A stretch of DNA of 42,126 nucleotides from Ferrovibrio sp. Lineage in GTDB: Bacteria; Pseudomonadota; Alphaproteobacteria; Ferrovibrionales; Ferrovibrionaceae. Made by a program: the position numbers and the translations under genes. The stretch is from NCBI RefSeq assembly GCF_029255545.1, contig NZ_JANLJJ010000053.1:2126-44251 (forward strand). Reading direction: 5' to 3'. Position 1 is the stretch's first letter. Each line of letters opens with the position of its first letter. Shown in pieces: positions 5,440 through 27,461 of this stretch. The notes beneath the pieces are model-generated. The model was not told the origin of the DNA. It worked only from the letters and a program-made list of their open reading frames with translations, and ran no database searches.

Positions 5440-5758
5440 CGACTTTTGATGGCATTTAATAGCTGTTGTTAAGTTATTGTTTATGAAGTGTTATTTGAGA
5501 TATGGCTTTTCTGGGGCGGAATTTCTAAATCGCTGATAAATAATAAAAAATCCAGAATCCAGCGGTACTGTGGCGACAATGCAACACGCGCGGCAAAAGC
5601 GCAGTGAGAAATGCCACTTTTATTGACACTTGTAGGGCGGTAATGGCTTCATCCTAAATGATCATTCGGCTCTGCAAGGCTGATTGTTCTGCCGGTCGTC
5701 GGCGTTGTTGGCGGCGAGGCATTGCAACCCAAATCCCGGTGGGAGAGGAAAGAGGAAC
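5440..5758 (+). other. AT-rich intergenic region before porin 1
   Basis: These 319 bases hold no convincing gene. The first half is very AT-rich, with runs such as AAATAATAAAAAA near 5540. The second half is closer to genome composition and contains a TTGACA hexamer (5623-5628). Just upstream is an imperfect CRP-like pair, AGTGA-N6-CCACT (5603-5618). The last bases, GGAAAGAGGAAC, form the ribosome site of porin 1. I read it as the porin 1 promoter and leader. Confidence 0.5.
5623..5651 (+). promoter_or_regulatory. Possible sigma-70 promoter of porin 1
   Basis: A perfect -35 hexamer TTGACA (5623-5628) lies about 130 bases before the porin 1 start. No strong -10 box sits 16-18 bases on; GCTTCA or CTTCAT is the best available. 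A weak -10 would suit an activator-dependent promoter, and the CRP-like half-match at 5603-5618 sits directly upstream of the -35. Confidence 0.35.
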
Positions 5759-6943
5759 ATGAAGAAGACGCTGCTTCTGCAAACCGCGCTCGTTGCGGCT
5801 GCTGGCCTGTTCGTGGCCGACGTTGCTTCGGCGCAAACCAAGGCCACGCCGATCGGCGTGACCGTCGGTGGTTACTACACCTCGTTCTATAAGGTGCAGG
5901 ATCGCGATAAGGCCGCGAATAACGCGGGCAACACCGACCAGTCGACCCAGGCTCTCGGCCAGGACGCCGAAATCTGGTTCAACATCCGTGGCGTGCTCGA
6001 CAACGGCACCGTCATCGGTGGCCGCGTCGAGTTGGAAGGCACCACTTATGCTGACCAGATCGATGAAACCTATCTCTTCGTCGAGAAAGCCGATATCGGC
6101 CGTATGGAAATCGGTGCTACCGATCGCGTGACTGGCAAGATGCTGTATTTTGCCCCGAACGCGCTTCCTGGCCACTCGACTACGGTCAACTCCGAGTATT
6201 CGGCTGCTAATGTTCAGCCTCTGATGTGGTTCTCCAATTCGGGCCACGACAATGAAGGTATTAACCTCTATACCGCTTCGAACCGCTACTTTGGCTCGAA
6301 GACTGGTAAGGGCCTGCAGCTCGGCGTGTCGTATGTTCCGAACGGCTGCCAGGACTTTAGCGGCTGCGCCGGCGGCTTCTCGTCGACTGCCGATGCCGGT
6401 CAGTTGTCGCAGCAGTTTGCGGCGGCCGCCAACTATATCGAATCGTTCGGTTCGGTTGATGCAGCTCTGTATGCCGGTTACACCACTGCCCACATCGAAG
6501 GCACGCTGGGTACCGGTGTGACCGATCCGCGTCAGGATGGCTGGCAGGTTGGCGCGCAGTTCACCTACAACGTAGGCGATGGTTCGACTGTGCAGTTGGG
6601 CGGTGGTTACAGCGCCGAAGATGTGGGTCGTGATGCTGACTCGACTGCTTCGGGTGGCGTGATCAAGGATCGCAAGGCTTACTCGGTTGGCCTGCGCTAT
6701 CTGACCAACGGTGCCGCGCCCGGATCGGTTGGTATCGGTGCTGAGTATTACAATCGTAAGGACGATCTGACCACTGCGGGTACTGAAGACAAGCTGAACT
6801 ACTACACCCTCGGCGTTACCTACCAGATCGCTGCTGGTATGCTGACCTTTGCGGGTGTTGGCGTTTCGGATGCCAAGTATGCGGCCGCTACGAACGACCC
6901 GAAGCAGACCTTCGGCGTCGTTGGTCTTGCTCTGAACTTCTAA
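5759..6943 (+). CDS. Outer-membrane porin (copy 1 of 3)
   Basis: A 394-residue trimeric-type porin that lets small solutes cross the outer membrane. It has a Sec signal (MKKTLLLQ, hydrophobic core, cleavage likely after ASA25 before Q26) and alternating aromatic/small beta-strand patterns through the mature chain. It ends in VVGLALNF, with the C-terminal Phe read by the BAM complex. The core PIGVTVGGYY, the AEIWFNIRGVLDNGT strand and the GINLYTASNRYFGSK strand are shared with two paralogues downstream. Cys197 and Cys203 (CQDFSGC) could form a disulfide in a loop. The ATG at 5759 is chosen over an upstream in-frame ATG because it follows GGAAAGAGGAAC and begins the signal peptide. A strong terminator follows, so it is probably monocistronic. 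Confidence 0.93.
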   Translation: MKKTLLLQTALVAAAGLFVADVASAQTKATPIGVTVGGYYTSFYKVQDRDKAANNAGNTDQSTQALGQDAEIWFNIRGVLDNGTVIGGRVELEGTTYADQIDETYLFVEKADIGRMEIGATDRVTGKMLYFAPNALPGHSTTVNSEYSAANVQPLMWFSNSGHDNEGINLYTASNRYFGSKTGKGLQLGVSYVPNGCQDFSGCAGGFSSTADAGQLSQQFAAAANYIESFGSVDAALYAGYTTAHIEGTLGTGVTDPRQDGWQVGAQFTYNVGDGSTVQLGGGYSAEDVGRDADSTASGGVIKDRKAYSVGLRYLTNGAAPGSVGIGAEYYNRKDDLTTAGTEDKLNYYTLGVTYQIAAGMLTFAGVGVSDAKYAAATNDPKQTFGVVGLALNF

Positions 6944-6964
6944 TTCGACCTATTTGGTTGGAGG

Positions 6965-6997
6965 GAAAGGGGCGGGGAAACCTGCCCCTTTCTTTTT
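6965..6997 (+). terminator. Rho-independent terminator of porin 1
   Basis: A 12-base-pair stem, GAAAGGGGCGGG pairing with CCTGCCCCTTTC (one G-U pair), is closed by a GAAA tetraloop at 6977-6980 and followed by five T. It begins 21 bases after the porin 1 stop. Two very similar hairpins follow the other porins. Confidence 0.92.
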
Positions 6998-7021
6998 ATA
7001 TGATTGTCCCCACTGCTGATT

Positions 7022-7037
7022 TGTGATTGCCATCACA
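7022..7037. promoter_or_regulatory. Perfect CRP/FNR-type palindrome before porin 2
   Basis: TGTGATTGCCATCACA is an exact TGTGA-N6-TCACA site; its arms extend to TGTGAT/ATCACA and it is flanked by T and T. This is the established binding consensus of the cAMP receptor protein. Its centre is 184 bases before the porin 2 start. A possible -10 (CATATT, 7084-7089) would put the site near -66, a class I activator position. That a CRP-family protein binds here is inference. Confidence 0.7.
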
Positions 7038-7213
7038 TTGTCTTGTGCTTCTGCGGCCACAGCGCCGCATGAACTACAGGCCGCATATTTTTCCTATGTT
7101 TCCCGTGATTGCCGTATGGGTTCGGCTTCCGCATGATGCCGCCACAAAATGGGGTGCGAAGAGGTTCGTCCTTCGACGCTGACAAGCTCCAACATAGTGG
7201 AAGGACATTCCAG

Positions 7214-8386
7214 ATGAAAAAGACTTTGCTGCTCCAGACCGCGCTTGTTGCGGCTGTCGGTTTGTTCGTGGCCGACATTGCTTCAGCGCAGACCAAAGCC
7301 ACGCCGATTGGTGTGACTGTCGGTGGTTACTATCAGTCATTCTATAAAGTACAGGATCGTGATAAAGCGGCCCAGACTGATCAGTCGAGTCAGGCGCTCG
7401 GCCAGGACGCAGAAATCTGGTTCAACATCCGTGGCGTGCTCGATAATGGCACCATCATTGGCGGCCGCGTGGAGTTGGAAGGCACCACTTATGGTGACCA
7501 GATCGATGAAACCTATCTCTTCGTCGAAAGGGCTGATATCGGCCGTATGGAACTCGGCGCTACCGATCGCGTCAATGCTAAAATGAATTACTTCGCGCCA
7601 GATGCCTTCCCGGGCCATGGCACGACTTCTCAGTCGGAATACGCCGCATCGGTCATCCAGCCGCAGATGTGGACAGTAAATCACGGCAACGACAGCGAAG
7701 GCATCAATCTCTACACCGCCTCGAATCGCTACTTCGGTTCGAAAGCTGGGAAGGGTCTGCAACTCGGTGTGTCTTATGTCCCGAATGGTTGTCAGGATTT
7801 TGGCGGCACCTCAGCCTGCGCCGGCGGATTCTCGTCGACCGCCAATGATGGCCAACTGTCGCAGCAGTATGCGGTCGCAGCGAACTACATCGAGTCGTTC
7901 GGTCCGGTCGATGCGGCGCTGTACGCCGGTTATAATAGCGTGCATATCGAAGGCACGCTGGGCGCCGGCGCCACCGATCCGCGCCAGGATGCCTGGCAGG
8001 TTGGCACTCAGCTGACCTACAATGTCGGCGATGGTTCGAGCGTCACTCTGGGTGGCGGTTACAACAACGAGGATGTCGGTCGTGCTGCCGGCTTCTCCAG
8101 CGCCACCGTCACCAAGGAGCGCGAATCCTATACCGTCGGCCTGCGCTACCTGACCAACGGTGCCAATCCGGGTTCGGTTGGTATCGGTGTCAACTACTAC
8201 ACCGGTGAAGACAAGAACTTCAACGGCACCAAGGACGAGCTCGATTACTACGCGCTCGGCGTGACCTATCAGGTTGCCAAGGGCGTGCTGAGCTTCGCCG
8301 GTGCCGGCGTCACCGATGCCGAACTGTCGGCTGCCGAGGATCCGAAACAGACTTTTGGCGTCGTCGGCCTGCGTCTCGACTTCTGA
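7214..8386 (+). CDS. Outer-membrane porin (copy 2 of 3)
   Basis: A 390-residue porin very like copy 1. The signal peptide is nearly identical (MKKTLLLQTALVAAVG, cleavage after ASA25). The mature chain has the same beta-barrel strands and ends in VVGLRLDF with the C-terminal Phe. The Cys pair is kept as C193 and C202 but the loop is longer (CQDFGGTSAC). Loop regions near 130-165 and 275-300 differ most from copy 1, as expected for surface loops that set solute choice or meet phage. The ATG at 7214 follows GGAAGGACATTCCAG; a longer in-frame start at 7109 would precede the signal peptide and is rejected. It has its own upstream region with a CRP-type site and its own terminator, so it can be regulated separately. 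Confidence 0.93.
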   Translation: MKKTLLLQTALVAAVGLFVADIASAQTKATPIGVTVGGYYQSFYKVQDRDKAAQTDQSSQALGQDAEIWFNIRGVLDNGTIIGGRVELEGTTYGDQIDETYLFVERADIGRMELGATDRVNAKMNYFAPDAFPGHGTTSQSEYAASVIQPQMWTVNHGNDSEGINLYTASNRYFGSKAGKGLQLGVSYVPNGCQDFGGTSACAGGFSSTANDGQLSQQYAVAANYIESFGPVDAALYAGYNSVHIEGTLGAGATDPRQDAWQVGTQLTYNVGDGSSVTLGGGYNNEDVGRAAGFSSATVTKERESYTVGLRYLTNGANPGSVGIGVNYYTGEDKNFNGTKDELDYYALGVTYQVAKGVLSFAGAGVTDAELSAAEDPKQTFGVVGLRLDF

Positions 8387-8409
8387 TCCGGATTGGATTC
8401 TGAAACGGG

Positions 8410-8438
8410 AAGGGGGCGGGGCAACCTGCCCCCTTTTC
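8410..8438 (+). terminator. Rho-independent terminator of porin 2
   Basis: An 11-base-pair stem, AAGGGGGCGGG with CCTGCCCCCTT, is capped by GCAA at 8421-8424 and followed by a short T tract. Sequence and loop type closely match the terminator of porin 1. Confidence 0.9.
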
Positions 8439-8480
8439 GTTGCCGGCCCGTCTCTTGCAGCCTTGTGTTCATTCCCGGCG

Positions 8481-8508
8481 TTGACTTGTGGGGCTGGCGC
8501 TCCATAGT
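8481..8508 (+). promoter_or_regulatory. Likely sigma-70 promoter of porin 3
   Basis: TTGACT (8481-8486), a 16-base spacer and CATAGT (8503-8508) make a fair sigma-70 promoter. The start point would be near 8515, giving a leader of about 60 bases before the ATG at 8577. No CRP-type palindrome was seen here, unlike porin 2. Confidence 0.45.
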
Positions 8509-8576
8509 CGGGTGTAGGCCGGACCACAAGGTCATTCTTCGGCACAGATCAGGCACCTTCAGGAAGGAGCTACGGC

Positions 8577-9830
8577 ATGAAAAACGCTTTCCTGCTCCAG
8601 ACCGCACTCGTGGCAGCGGCTGGCCTGCTGGTTGCCGGTGTCGCAAATGCCCAGACCAGGGACGTGCCGATCGGCGTCGCGGTCGGCGGCTACATGACCC
8701 ATGTCTTCAAGATGCAGGATCGCGACGACCGCCCGACGCAGCGCGATGCCGGTTCGATCGCCTTCGGGTCGCCCGATGCCGAGATCTGGTTCAGCATCCG
8801 CGGCGTATTGGACAACGGCACCGTCGTCGGCGGGCGTATCGAGCTGGAGGGCCAGACCGAGAGCGACCAGATCGACGAGACCTATATGTTCGTCGAACGC
8901 AGCGACATCGGCCGCATCGAGCTGGGATCGACGGATCGGGCCGCGTCCAAGATGGTCTATGGCGCGCCGATTGCCATTCCCGGTTACGGTACAATCGATC
9001 CGACTGGTGCGATTTCGGTTACTAACACCCCGGCCGGCGCCCGCACCAGCGGCAATCTGACCAAATTCATCAGTGTCGACGACAATCAGGGCGTCAACCT
9101 GTATACTTCGGCGAACCGCTATTTCGGCTCCAAGGCAGGCAAGGGTCTGCAGTTCGGCCTATCCTATACGCCCGACGGCTGCCAGGATTTCTCCGGTTGT
9201 GGCGGCGGTTTCGGGTCGACCGCCAACGCCGGCCAGATCTCGAAGGCCTACACCGCTGCCGCAAACTATCTCGAGTCGTTTGGTCCGGTCGATGTAGCTG
9301 TTTTCGGTGCCTACAACCGCTTCTCGGTTGAGGCCGACAGTGCCGGCAGCGCCACCAACGGTTCCGCCACCGTGTTCAAGTCGAGTGGTCTCGACGGTTA
9401 TGCCGCCGGCACCACGCTGACCTACAACATCGGCGACGGCTCGTCGGTCCAGCTCGGCGGCGCCTACAAGCGCGAAGAGATGGGCGTCACCCGCAGCGGC
9501 GACGACAAGCGCAACGTCTACACCGCCGGCCTGCGCTACCTGACGGCCGGCACCACGCCGGGTTCGATCGGTCTGGGCGTCGATTTCGCCAAGACCAAGG
9601 CCGACCAGGGTAACATCGCCGGCACTGCCGTCGGCGGTGAAGACGAATACACCTGGTATTCGGCTGGCCTGACCTACCAGGTCGCGACCGGCATCCTGCT
9701 GTTTGGTGGTCTCGGCTATTACGAGTATGACGACGCGATCAGCGCCGGCACCGTGGTCGCCGCCACGACCCAGGCCGATAACGATTCCAAGGCGACCTTC
9801 GGCGTCGTCGGCATGCGCCTCGACTTCTGA
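8577..9830 (+). CDS. Outer-membrane porin (copy 3 of 3)
   Basis: A 417-residue porin, the most divergent of the three. The signal peptide ends in GVANA25 before Q26. It keeps the core strands (PIGVAVGGYM, AEIWFSIRGVLDNGT, VNLYTSANRYFGSK) and the terminal VVGMRLDF. It has a longer segment at about 130-170 (TIDPTGAISVTNTPAG region) and extra residues near the C-terminal strands, so its surface loops are larger. The Cys pair is C202 and C208 (CQDFSGC). Codon use is more strongly GC-ending than in copies 1 and 2. The ATG at 8577 follows AGGAAGGAGC. Own promoter and terminator suggest a separate unit. Substrate cannot be predicted. Confidence 0.93.
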   Translation: MKNAFLLQTALVAAAGLLVAGVANAQTRDVPIGVAVGGYMTHVFKMQDRDDRPTQRDAGSIAFGSPDAEIWFSIRGVLDNGTVVGGRIELEGQTESDQIDETYMFVERSDIGRIELGSTDRAASKMVYGAPIAIPGYGTIDPTGAISVTNTPAGARTSGNLTKFISVDDNQGVNLYTSANRYFGSKAGKGLQFGLSYTPDGCQDFSGCGGGFGSTANAGQISKAYTAAANYLESFGPVDVAVFGAYNRFSVEADSAGSATNGSATVFKSSGLDGYAAGTTLTYNIGDGSSVQLGGAYKREEMGVTRSGDDKRNVYTAGLRYLTAGTTPGSIGLGVDFAKTKADQGNIAGTAVGGEDEYTWYSAGLTYQVATGILLFGGLGYYEYDDAISAGTVVAATTQADNDSKATFGVVGMRLDF

Positions 9831-24925: not shown

Positions 24926-25504
24926 TTACTGGCCGATGTCGCCGAGCAGGCGGAAGATCACCACGTCCAGCACGACGACGTAGAGCAGCATCACCAGCAG
25001 CATGAAATAGCGGTGGATGTCGCCGCTCAGCTTCGGCTTGCGGCGCAGGGCGCTGCGCGCCAGGTTTGAAAAATCGCCGACCAGATAGGCCATCTTGGCA
25101 TGTTCGTTGGCCTGCCAGGATTGCAGCATGGCGATCACCATGACGCTGACGAAGCCGACGAAAACCAGGAATCCGGCAACGAATCGCGCGACATCGGCGG
25201 CAAAGGGCATGGCGGTGCCGATGGCGACCAGGGCAAGCCCGAGCAGGGTGAAATACTCCACCACGCGCCATTGCTGGCGTTTGGCGAACAGCACATTGCG
25301 TGCCGCCGCATCGTAAAGCAGGCGGAATTCGGCATGGGTGGCGTCGTCCAGCTCGCTGGGGCTGAGCTTTTCCGGCTCCGGCCCGTTATCGGCGGGAGGA
25401 GCGGCCTTGGGTGCCGGCGGACGCGGCGGCGCGCCATGAGGCGGTGCACCAGCCGGCGGGCGGCTGGGCGCTTGTCCGGGAGTCTGTTTCGGTGGCAGAG
25501 CCAT
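24926..25504 (-). CDS. Proline-rich membrane protein with three helices
   Basis: I do not recognise a named family. The 192-residue product begins with a proline/alanine-rich stretch (about 4-45, likely disordered) and then a charged helix (LDDATHAEFRLLYDAAARNV). Three hydrophobic segments follow at about 83-100, 106-127 and 166-185, so it should sit in the inner membrane with its N-terminus in the cytoplasm. The region between the second and third helices carries basic residues (ARSALRRKPKLS), which fits a cytoplasmic loop. It lies 44 bases after the PRMT-like gene and may be in one operon with it. Confidence is high that it is a gene, low on its role. Confidence 0.75.
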   Translation of the reverse strand: MALPPKQTPGQAPSRPPAGAPPHGAPPRPPAPKAAPPADNGPEPEKLSPSELDDATHAEFRLLYDAAARNVLFAKRQQWRVVEYFTLLGLALVAIGTAMPFAADVARFVAGFLVFVGFVSVMVIAMLQSWQANEHAKMAYLVGDFSNLARSALRRKPKLSGDIHRYFMLLVMLLYVVVLDVVIFRLLGDIGQ

Positions 25505-25548: not shown

Positions 25549-27273
25549 TCAAGCCGGGGCGAAGTCGAAATAGGTGTCGGCCAGGGTAACCCGGAACGCC
25601 ATTTGCCCACCGGCCTGAACCGGTCGGTCTTCCGGCAGCCAGCATACCGCCTGGCCCCAATGCCGCATGGCGCCGTCCGGTCCGGTCGAGAGCATGATCT
25701 CGGCATCGAGCCAGAGCTCGAACCAGAAGACTAGCGCCTGCGCCGTACCATCCCGCAGGATCGGCGCCGACCAGGCCATCTGCTGTGGCTGCACCCAGTC
25801 TGGTGGATTGGCGAAATCGACCCGGCAGACCGGCAGCACGGCGCTCAAGGCTTCATAGGGTTCGTGATCCAGTCGCACCACGCCATGGGCCGACTGGTTG
25901 CGGAATTTGTCGAAGGGCGACAGGTCGAAGCCGCAGATTTCGCGCAGGGGGTTCACCGCACGCAGGTTCGGCAGGCGCACCACCTGCGCGACCACCTGTG
26001 CCGCCGCCGGGATCACCGTCGCGCCGGGCCGGGCCAGGCGGCGCAGCGCGTCGCGGATGGTCGGCAGCATACCTTCGCCGGTCAGGCCGGCATCCAGCAC
26101 TTCCGCCACCACCAGGTCGGCCGGTTTCGGCAGGTCGCGCCCGGGCTCCAGTTCGGTCGAGCGTTTGGCAATCACCGCGATGCGGTCGGCATAGCCGTTT
26201 TTCGCCACGATTTCCTGCGCCGTCTCGGCGATCAGCGGATAGGCCTCGCAGGCGATCACGCGCTCGGCGCCGGCGCGGGCCGCCAGCATCGCCAGCAATC
26301 CCGAGCCGGTGCCGATATCGAGCACCGTCAGGCCCGGCTGCACCGCCTTGTCCAAAGCCGCGGCGAAAGCCTCGTTGCGCGCGGTGTCGGCCAGCATGGG
26401 AAAATGCCAGCCGGGAATCTGCGCGCTCAGCAGGCCGGACAGCGCCGCCTTCACCTGCGCATCCTCCGGCGCCAGTTCGGCGGCGCGGCGCAGGGCCGCC
26501 AGTGCCGTGGCGCTGTCGTTCAACTCGCGCGCCGATTGCCCGATCGCCATATGGGCAGCCACCAGCGTGTCGTCCCGTTTCAACGCCTCGCGCAGGGTGG
26601 CGATGGCCTCGCGGAAGCGGTGCAGCTTGTGCAGCGCCAGGCCGGCATTCAAATGCGCCATGGTCAGGTCGGGTCGCAGCGTCGCCGCCGCGCGATAGGC
26701 AGCCAGCGCGGCTTCCAGGTCGCCGGCCAGCTCGCAGACAACGCCGAGATTGACCTGGGCGGCGACATAATCGGGCCGCTGCTGCAGCAGGGCGCGGTAT
26801 TCCGCCTGCGCCACGGCATAGGCGCCACGGTCCTTCAGGATATTGGCCAGGTTGAAGCGCGCTTCGGCGAAATCCGGCCGCAAGGCCAGCGCACGGCGGC
26901 AGGCGGTTTCGGCTTCGTCCAGCCGGCCCAGCATGCCCAGCGCCAGGGCCAGATTATTGGCGGCGTCGGCGTGATCGGGCTGCAGTCGCAGAGCCTGTTC
27001 GGCGGCCTGGATGGCCTGGGCGGCCTGGCCCAGGGCCATATGCATCAGGGCGGCATTGCACCAGCAGGCCGGATCGGGCCGCAGGGCCAGGGCGCGCTGC
27101 AGGTATTTCAACCCCTCGGCCGGATGACCGGCCTGGTAATGCAGCAGGCCGTATTGATGCAGCAGGCCGGGCTGCTGCGGATCGGCGCGCAGCAGAGTCT
27201 GGTAAATCTCGGCCGCCTCGGCCAGGCGGCCGGCTCTTTGATGCTGCAGGGCAGTCTGGACGGGATCGGACAT
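25549..27273 (-). CDS. TPR protein with PRMT-type arginine methyltransferase domain
   Basis: From the ATG at 27273 the product is 574 residues. About eight TPR repeats of 34 residues cover 5-272. A class I methyltransferase domain follows: motif I VLDIGTGSG (317-325), post-I acidic Glu343 in ACEA, and the double-E loop with Glu391 and Glu400 in AEVLDAGLTGEGML. The nine-residue spacing of the two Glu is the same as Glu144/Glu153 of PRMT1. The C-terminal beta-barrel has the HW loop (His538-Trp539 in MRHWGQAVCWLP). This is the layout of PRMT7/PRMT9-like enzymes, which methylate arginine side chains. It is divergent from the flagellar cluster and next to a membrane protein. The target is unknown; a flagellar or envelope protein is inference. 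Confidence 0.85.
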   Translation of the reverse strand: MSDPVQTALQHQRAGRLAEAAEIYQTLLRADPQQPGLLHQYGLLHYQAGHPAEGLKYLQRALALRPDPACWCNAALMHMALGQAAQAIQAAEQALRLQPDHADAANNLALALGMLGRLDEAETACRRALALRPDFAEARFNLANILKDRGAYAVAQAEYRALLQQRPDYVAAQVNLGVVCELAGDLEAALAAYRAAATLRPDLTMAHLNAGLALHKLHRFREAIATLREALKRDDTLVAAHMAIGQSARELNDSATALAALRRAAELAPEDAQVKAALSGLLSAQIPGWHFPMLADTARNEAFAAALDKAVQPGLTVLDIGTGSGLLAMLAARAGAERVIACEAYPLIAETAQEIVAKNGYADRIAVIAKRSTELEPGRDLPKPADLVVAEVLDAGLTGEGMLPTIRDALRRLARPGATVIPAAAQVVAQVVRLPNLRAVNPLREICGFDLSPFDKFRNQSAHGVVRLDHEPYEALSAVLPVCRVDFANPPDWVQPQQMAWSAPILRDGTAQALVFWFELWLDAEIMLSTGPDGAMRHWGQAVCWLPEDRPVQAGGQMAFRVTLADTYFDFAPA

Positions 27274-27444
27274 GGGGCCGGACCATAGCCGCAGATTCGG
27301 GAGAAGGCGACCGCCGGCGATCCGGCAGACCGGACGATTCGCGCACCGGCAGAAATTGCCGCCCGGCAATGCCGGAATGGGGCGTGGACCCAGGGCGTGG
27401 CAGAAATATCATTGTAGAACATGTAGTTATACTTGGCTTTCGAC

Positions 27445-27461
27445 TTGGCCCACCGCTTGCT
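27445..27461 (+). promoter_or_regulatory. Sigma-54 promoter before fliK
   Basis: TTGGCCCACCGCTTGCT matches the RpoN consensus YTGGCACG-N4-TTGCW, with GG at 27447-27448 and GC at 27459-27460, exactly ten bases between. The start of transcription should be near 27472, just before the fliK ATG at 27490. This also rules out the longer fliK start at 27433. The activator is likely FlbD, encoded in the same cluster. Confidence 0.75.

Follow-up and report, generated by a model that had tools for sequence, protein, structure and literature searches.

The TPR-PRMT locus

The window, a stretch of 42,126 nucleotides from Ferrovibrio sp., carries a gene whose product joins TPRs to a protein arginine methyltransferase (PRMT) module. 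The gene and the features on either side of it are as follows.

24926..25504, minus strand: gene for a hydrophobic protein of 192 aa, downstream of the TPR-PRMT gene on the same strand across a 44-base gap
25549..27273, minus strand: TPR-PRMT gene, 574 aa, an open frame from ATG with relatives found by search
27348..27361, no strand: inverted repeat GGCAGAAATTGCCG between the TPR-PRMT gene and fliK, in three sister sequences aligned
27445..27460, plus strand: sigma54-like sequence TTGGCCCACCGCTTGC upstream of fliK, recurring almost unchanged before fliK in four sister species

A second possible frame for the TPR-PRMT gene, of 606 aa, begins at TTG 27369, and fliK probably starts at ATG 27490. 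An earlier note on this DNA described the two genes as divergent, and they are, with fliK on the plus strand and the TPR-PRMT gene on the minus strand. The inverted repeat may have a regulatory role. The sigma54-like sequence is a putative element, its pattern picked by eye. Pfam gave no match at 0.01 for the 192-aa hydrophobic protein.

Domain layout and nearest structural relatives

The protein divides into an N-terminal arm and a C-terminal module.

26422..27273, minus strand: TPR arm, aa 1-284, with eight TPRs (eight stretches matched by each of Pfam TPR_2 and TPR_14)
25549..26421, minus strand: PRMT module, aa 285-574, stop codon included (phmmer and profile searches against the PDB; Pfam PRMT_C)

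Results of Pfam, phmmer, profile and alignment agree with the central claim of the earlier note, an intact PRMT active-site signature after eight TPRs. The module lies at the C-terminus, as had been said, but it spans about 290 residues (aa 285-574) and not 270. A crude TPR regular expression, which gave 1 for the window protein, was not used. PRMTs aside, the best PDB matches of the arm after an engineered TPR protein were O-GlcNAc transferases, enzymes that select their protein clients through a TPR arm.

When the PRMT module alone was compared with the PDB by phmmer, PRMT7 (4c4a) was matched best (3e-45) and well above chance, followed by 8rbk (3e-39), PRMT9 (2e-37) and then other PRMTs; 8rbk, named 'MGC151858 protein', is nearly identical to PRMT9 in alignment. 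The family profile A2, built from 12 sequences including that of the window, gave 3e-85 for PRMT7, 6e-78 for 8rbk and 1e-75 for PRMT9. With this profile 62 PDB sequences pass 1e-10, and among the best 60 of these 59 bear arginine-methyltransferase names, the remaining one is 8rbk, and no other methyltransferase family occurs. The comparison that the earlier note had proposed places PRMT7 and PRMT9 nearest, with no closer non-PRMT class I family in the matches listed. The beta-barrel on which that note made the assignment depend is recognised at the level of sequence: Pfam PRMT_C (PF22528) scores 46.9 bits at aa 445-565 against a cut-off of 27, and the alignments to PRMT7 and PRMT9 span the Rossmann core and the barrel region. 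The window protein is homologous to both enzymes over this whole region, and a PRMT beta-barrel with its dimerisation arm is predicted for it.

Between the window protein and its congeners the PRMT module is 56-59% identical, while the arm is alignable over 75-111 residues only. Across the family the N-terminal arm measures 63-434 aa with a median of 227, all upper bounds taken from the longest frames, and it is at most 95 aa long in 11 of 60 members; the one short-arm member tested had no TPR match. An arm that varies while the module stays is as expected if the arm picks the clients.

Conservation of the active-site motifs

Conservation was read from an alignment of 60 members (the window, 12 loci and 47 further loci, all above 250 bits), whose rows are not independent.

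26374..26409, minus strand: WHFPMLADTARN, opening of the PRMT core, aa 289-300 (phmmer alignment; the PRMT9 equivalent is WHFIMLNDTKRN)
26299..26325, minus strand: SAM motif I, VLDIGTGSG, aa 317-325 (Gly321 and Gly323 in 60/60 members)
26245..26247, minus strand: post-I acidic residue Glu343 (Glu in 59/60, Asp in 1)
26074..26103, minus strand: double-E loop, Glu391 to Glu400 (Glu391 in 59/60, Asp in 1; Glu400 in 50/60)
25924..25932, minus strand: GFD motif, presumed dimerisation arm, aa 448-450 (G in 60, F in 58 and D in 58 of 60)
25657..25662, minus strand: HW of the THW loop, His538-Trp539 (His in 44/60, Trp in 58/60)

Motif I, the acidic post-I residue, the glutamates 391 and 400 and the HW pair were all found at the positions that had been claimed for them; position 537 of the THW loop is Arg in the window protein, not Thr. 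In PRMT structures the GFD arm takes part in the dimer contact. The two glutamates lie nine apart, the double-E spacing of a PRMT; the definition of this motif and the role of the glutamates and His in holding the guanidinium follow the portion of PMC12153873 used here.

Seven residues (His290, Arg299, Asn300, Gly321, Gly323, Pro422 and Gly448) are invariant in all 60 members. The set of Glu391, Glu400, His538 and Trp539 is complete in 36 members, the window protein among them, and at least one of the four is missing in the other 24: the second Glu is absent in 10 of the 60, His538 is replaced in 15, and one row stops before it. After thinning to 51 rows below 80% identity, Glu391 was present in 50, Glu400 in 44, His538 in 38 and Trp539 in 49. 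Among 22 weaker bacterial PRMT-like rows, 19 have Glu391 and 17 have Glu400. Because the second Glu or the His is missing in some members, the family may include inactive or altered enzymes.

Distribution and naming of the family

Within the genus, five of ten genomes (that of the window included) hold a copy matched over nearly the full module; two of the ten are less than 85% complete. An even sample of 385 genomes of the class Alphaproteobacteria gave 63 with a profile match at 1e-10, of which 46 exceed 250 bits, these 46 carriers including one with an internal TAG (G241) and one matched over 249 of 289 positions (G028). A sample of the phylum gave matches at 1e-20 in 30 of 398 genomes, several of them to shorter, more distant PRMTs. 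The family is patchy within Alphaproteobacteria. The statement that such enzymes are rare in bacteria has to be qualified by the 46 class carriers; Pfam PRMT_C was found in 0/14 control genomes, a weak control. The same model was found in 5/21 relatives, all of them carriers within the genus, and since it misses the carriers G011 and G021 it undercounts. In the Tistrella member, too, it gives no match at 0.001; either the barrel has diverged in some members or the PRMT_C model is narrow.

Five genomes (G191, G216, G286, G329 and G384) have two copies above 250 bits, and the pair in G286 lies about 19 kb apart. A single-protein query against genome contigs returned one truncated Magnetococcales locus. 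A mobile or phage origin was among the readings rejected. No relative was found in phage records, and one scan of viral contigs confirmed none. Eight plasmid records have a relative, and Tistrella mobilis plasmid pTM2 carries a family match. Four of these eight relatives are named '50S ribosomal protein L11 methyltransferase' in RefSeq; three of the four score 180-371 bits with the family profile, and the name is taken to be wrong. Since the Pfam PrmA model scores above its gathering score on the window protein and relatives bear PrmA names, the family is easily missed.

Genomic site and neighbouring genes

Four sister species (G001, G002, G005 and G006) are without the TPR-PRMT gene and have the 192-aa gene directly beside fliK. 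In the congeners G003, G004, G007 and G008 the TPR-PRMT gene stands behind metX-metW and in three of them overlaps metW by a few bases. Both names are assigned from sequence and position, and Pfam sees in metX only an alpha/beta hydrolase. The window's species has another methyltransferase-like gene immediately after metW, and its TPR-PRMT gene lies between the 192-aa gene and fliK. As a partner of the whole family metX-metW was rejected: it accompanies the gene in 4/4 congeners outside the window's species, but at 0/55 other loci. The window copy is sister to the copies of four congeners in an 82-row tree (support 99) and of three in a 42-row tree (100/99), despite its different site. The gene therefore seems to be old in the genus, and to have been relocated, or lost and regained, among close kin.

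No partner gene within 5 kb is conserved across the family. The largest clusters of neighbours within this distance comprise eight loci each, one of an aminotransferase (two kin groups) and one of an aldolase/SDR frame; six loci share an AMP-binding protein and five an M81 peptidase. These recurrent neighbours offer no functional clue. At four loci (L131, L134, L136 and L137) the TPR-PRMT gene is near genes for a 281-aa protein and for a small protein of 102 aa, twin-arginine-like at its start and with a stretch rich in Gly, Lys and Pro; neither of the two has a Pfam match at L136 (8218-9416).

Descent

The 82-row tree was made first, without L090, L102, L104-L107, L160-L162 and duplicate loci. 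The 42-row tree takes 28/60 family rows, 7/13 distant bacterial rows and 7/8 eukaryotic rows, with the PRMT7 C-terminal module left out, and was rooted by choice on the type I rows. In it four PRMT7/9 rows group with all 28 rows of the bacterial family (97/94), to the exclusion of the distant bacterial rows and of three type I PRMTs. Forcing all seven eukaryotic rows together cost 57.9 log units (AU p = 0.00014) in a test made after the first tree had been seen. The eukaryotic rows, a thin sampling, come from eight segments of solved structures, some without their ends, with PRMT5 absent; the trees contain long branches, and a third quick tree showed a sign of long branches meeting. The trees give no firm placement of PRMT7 and PRMT9 relative to each other or to particular bacteria. 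These results suggest that PRMT7/9 and the bacterial family would share an ancestor apart from the type I PRMTs. The loci L089-L107 hold more distant PRMT-like proteins of the phylum, mostly short, and the first tree puts most of them on the type I side.

A wider reading can be offered tentatively and with considerable doubt. With such an ancestor, exclusive of type I, the line may have passed from bacteria, perhaps an alphaproteobacterium, to eukaryotes or in the reverse direction; the TPR-plus-PRMT plan may be ancestral; and Alphaproteobacteria may hold a client-directed methylation system partly hidden under the PrmA name.

We found no paper on bacterial TPR-PRMTs in the open literature, most subscription papers lying outside the search. 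Comparative-genomic reviews reportedly mention bacterial PRMTs, and earlier notice of the family is possible. In eukaryotes the methylation of arginine is one of the major regulatory modifications. Few bacterial arginine methyltransferases are characterised; a review (PMC10117894) names one that acts on host histones, and it mentions the mycobacterial Rv1988 and, in Legionella pneumophila, two predicted PRMTs whose function is unknown. Roughly one in eight of the genomes sampled from the class carries the TPR-PRMT gene, several of the records being misnamed. It is of interest because it is intact, recurs, bears a wrong name in part of the records and has PRMT7/9 as its nearest kin. The family would provide a defined enzyme for arginine methylation in bacteria, knockouts that are simple to make and a model of PRMT7/9 with a single module, and it bears on the origin of these two enzymes.

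Proposed function and comparison with known systems

The window protein is probably, though by no means certainly, a TPR-guided, SAM-dependent protein arginine methyltransferase related to PRMT7 and PRMT9. We know of no activity for any family member. The superhelix of eight TPRs would bind a client protein, or a few of them, and present an arginine to the single C-terminal PRMT module, which would probably form a homodimer through its GFD arm. The guanidinium would be held by Glu391, Glu400 and the His538-Trp539 loop, and the methyl group would be transferred from SAM bound at motif I. The analysis shows the gene, the order of its domains, the conservation of its motifs and its homology to PRMT7/9, whereas catalytic activity, dimer, product type and client binding by the arm are inferred. 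As the protein is near PRMT7/9, mono- or symmetric dimethylarginine would be a likelier product than the asymmetric form, a guess from kinship; in the excerpts consulted PRMT7 monomethylates (PMC8399567) and PRMT9 dimethylates SF3B2 symmetrically (PMC10578352).

The earlier note had seen in the protein the plan of PRMT9. This holds for the near kinship and for the TPRs, which in PRMT9 also precede the catalytic module, but not for the number of modules, which is one here and two in tandem in PRMT9. Likeness to PRMT9 (7rbq and 6pdm; 8rbk by alignment) extends from a common WHFxMLxDxxRN start through the barrel, and the double-E loop reads ETVDAGLFGEG in PRMT9 and EVLDAGLTGEG in the window protein, whereas PRMT9 has a CW loop in place of HW. 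PRMT7 is the best match by E-value with both module and profile; 4c4a differs in having two matched modules, while in the Trypanosoma brucei enzyme (4m36) a single module is matched and the loop reads QW. In both PRMT7 and PRMT9 the two tandem modules are folded as a pseudodimer (PMC10578352, as excerpted). The type I PRMTs (PRMT1, 3, 4, 6 and 8) share the single module, and PRMT8 also the HW loop and a GFD-type arm (YGFDM), but they score about 106-144 bits with the profile, compared with 178-199 for single N-terminal modules of PRMT7/9, and fall on a separate branch. O-GlcNAc transferase and SPINDLY resemble the window protein in joining a TPR superhelix, matched by the arm, to a protein-modifying enzyme; their catalytic domain and chemistry are different.

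Alternative explanations

Under the RefSeq name of some relatives, the protein would be the ribosomal protein L11 methyltransferase PrmA, with which it shares a class I SAM core. The Pfam PrmA model does score 47.1 bits against a gathering score of 22, but the match is partial (profile positions 154-237 of 296), the NCBIfam prmA equivalog TIGR00406 reaches 37.9 bits, far from its cut-off of 183.15, and the window protein has PRMT_C. No PrmA structure is in the best 60 of the 72 phmmer matches of the module or the best 60 of the 62 profile matches. Given the Pfam and NCBIfam scores, we rejected this identity as extremely improbable; a 350-aa frame elsewhere in the window's genome (G000:C18), matched over the SAM core only, is a candidate for the true PrmA. 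Loss of activity in a PRMT-fold enzyme, or its redirection to a substrate other than arginine, is quite unlikely here: the incomplete residue sets of 24 members and the PRMT-like domains inside NRPS proteins, which probably methylate the growing product, speak for such changes, but every signature residue examined is kept in the window protein. The leading alternative, somewhat less unlikely yet still doubtful, is an enzyme that methylates the guanidino group of free arginine or of another small guanidine, with the TPR arm serving assembly and not client choice. The model for such an enzyme is SznE of streptozotocin biosynthesis, an arginine-guanidino methyltransferase that supplies SznF with its substrate, N-omega-methyl-L-arginine (PMC11705231). 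SznE/StzE is likewise bacterial and methylates the guanidino group of arginine, a likeness drawn by description and not by sequence, but it acts on free arginine together with SznF. On plasmids of Pantoea dispersa and Methylobacterium indicum, TPR-less relatives stand beside Haem_oxygenas_2 (with sub-threshold Cupin_2), Rieske and ATP-grasp proteins, the last two on the Methylobacterium indicum plasmid as annotated; ada lies within the 7-kb flank on both plasmids, and a gene with an AlkA domain is also near the Methylobacterium indicum relative. These clusters call to mind SznF, which combines a heme-oxygenase-like with a cupin part, and they suggest a pathway that makes a small molecule from methylarginine, with free arginine as the substrate. 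However, two SznF-like, Rieske and ATP-grasp queries (phmmer, 1e-3) found nothing in the 59 other TPR-PRMT neighbourhoods or in the window, and an SznF-like query found nothing in the window's genome, a search without a positive control; eight TPRs would, moreover, be unusual for a small-molecule enzyme.

The earlier note held a flagellar or envelope target possible. The divergent gene order suggests a flagellar enzyme, with FliK, flagellin or another flagellar part as its target. In its favour, the gene shares with fliK an upstream region that holds the inverted repeat conserved in sisters, and FliG_C was found in 39/46 carriers compared with 189/339 non-carriers in the class sample (Fisher p = 1e-4). 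For genomes of at least 3 Mb the figures are 33/37 and 90/130 (p = 0.019), and among the remaining ones, in which genomes without a listed size are counted, 6/9 and 99/209 (p = 0.32), all without correction for kinship. In total 228/385 sample genomes had FliG_C; it was found in 39 of the 45 carriers searched, G241 being counted negative by its absence from the 228. The association is weak and would fit with both genes being kept by larger, free-living genomes, and FliG_C is missing from 7/46 carriers, four of them at least 90% complete. Against a flagellar role, ten flagellar queries gave no match at 1e-6, or up to 1e-3, in the 59 other neighbourhoods (1.08 Mb, with flanks of up to about 9 kb, several ended by contig ends). 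As controls in six congener stretches fliK, flgD and fliF were recovered in 6/6 and fliG in 5/6; six queries had no control, and a distant fliK could be missed. All ten genomes of the genus have flgD and only five the TPR-PRMT gene, four sister species keep the 192-aa gene beside fliK without it, and in four congeners it is linked to metX-metW. Without linkage in relatives the flagellar idea falls by the reasoning of the earlier note itself, and membership in a flagellar operon is not supported by the neighbourhoods. A modest co-occurrence with FliG remains, and we regard a flagellar target as improbable beside the TPR-guided protein arginine methyltransferase.

Additional observations

The plasmid clusters with TPR-less relatives lie at 5265-10483 of L195 (Pantoea dispersa plasmid pAHKW2b.3) and 6923-10980 of L200 (Methylobacterium indicum pVL1_1). 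By analogy they are possible SznE/SznF-like methylarginine or N-nitroso pathways with DNA-alkylation repair close by. PRMT-like domains within NRPS proteins (condensation, AMP-binding, PP-binding) were seen at L160 (3108-9629) and L161 (2048-9496), and in L160 the NRPS further contains a thioesterase and a second methyltransferase. Elsewhere in the window, at 5684-9830, three porin-like genes judged similar by eye stand in tandem, each matching a gene at the edge of L050.
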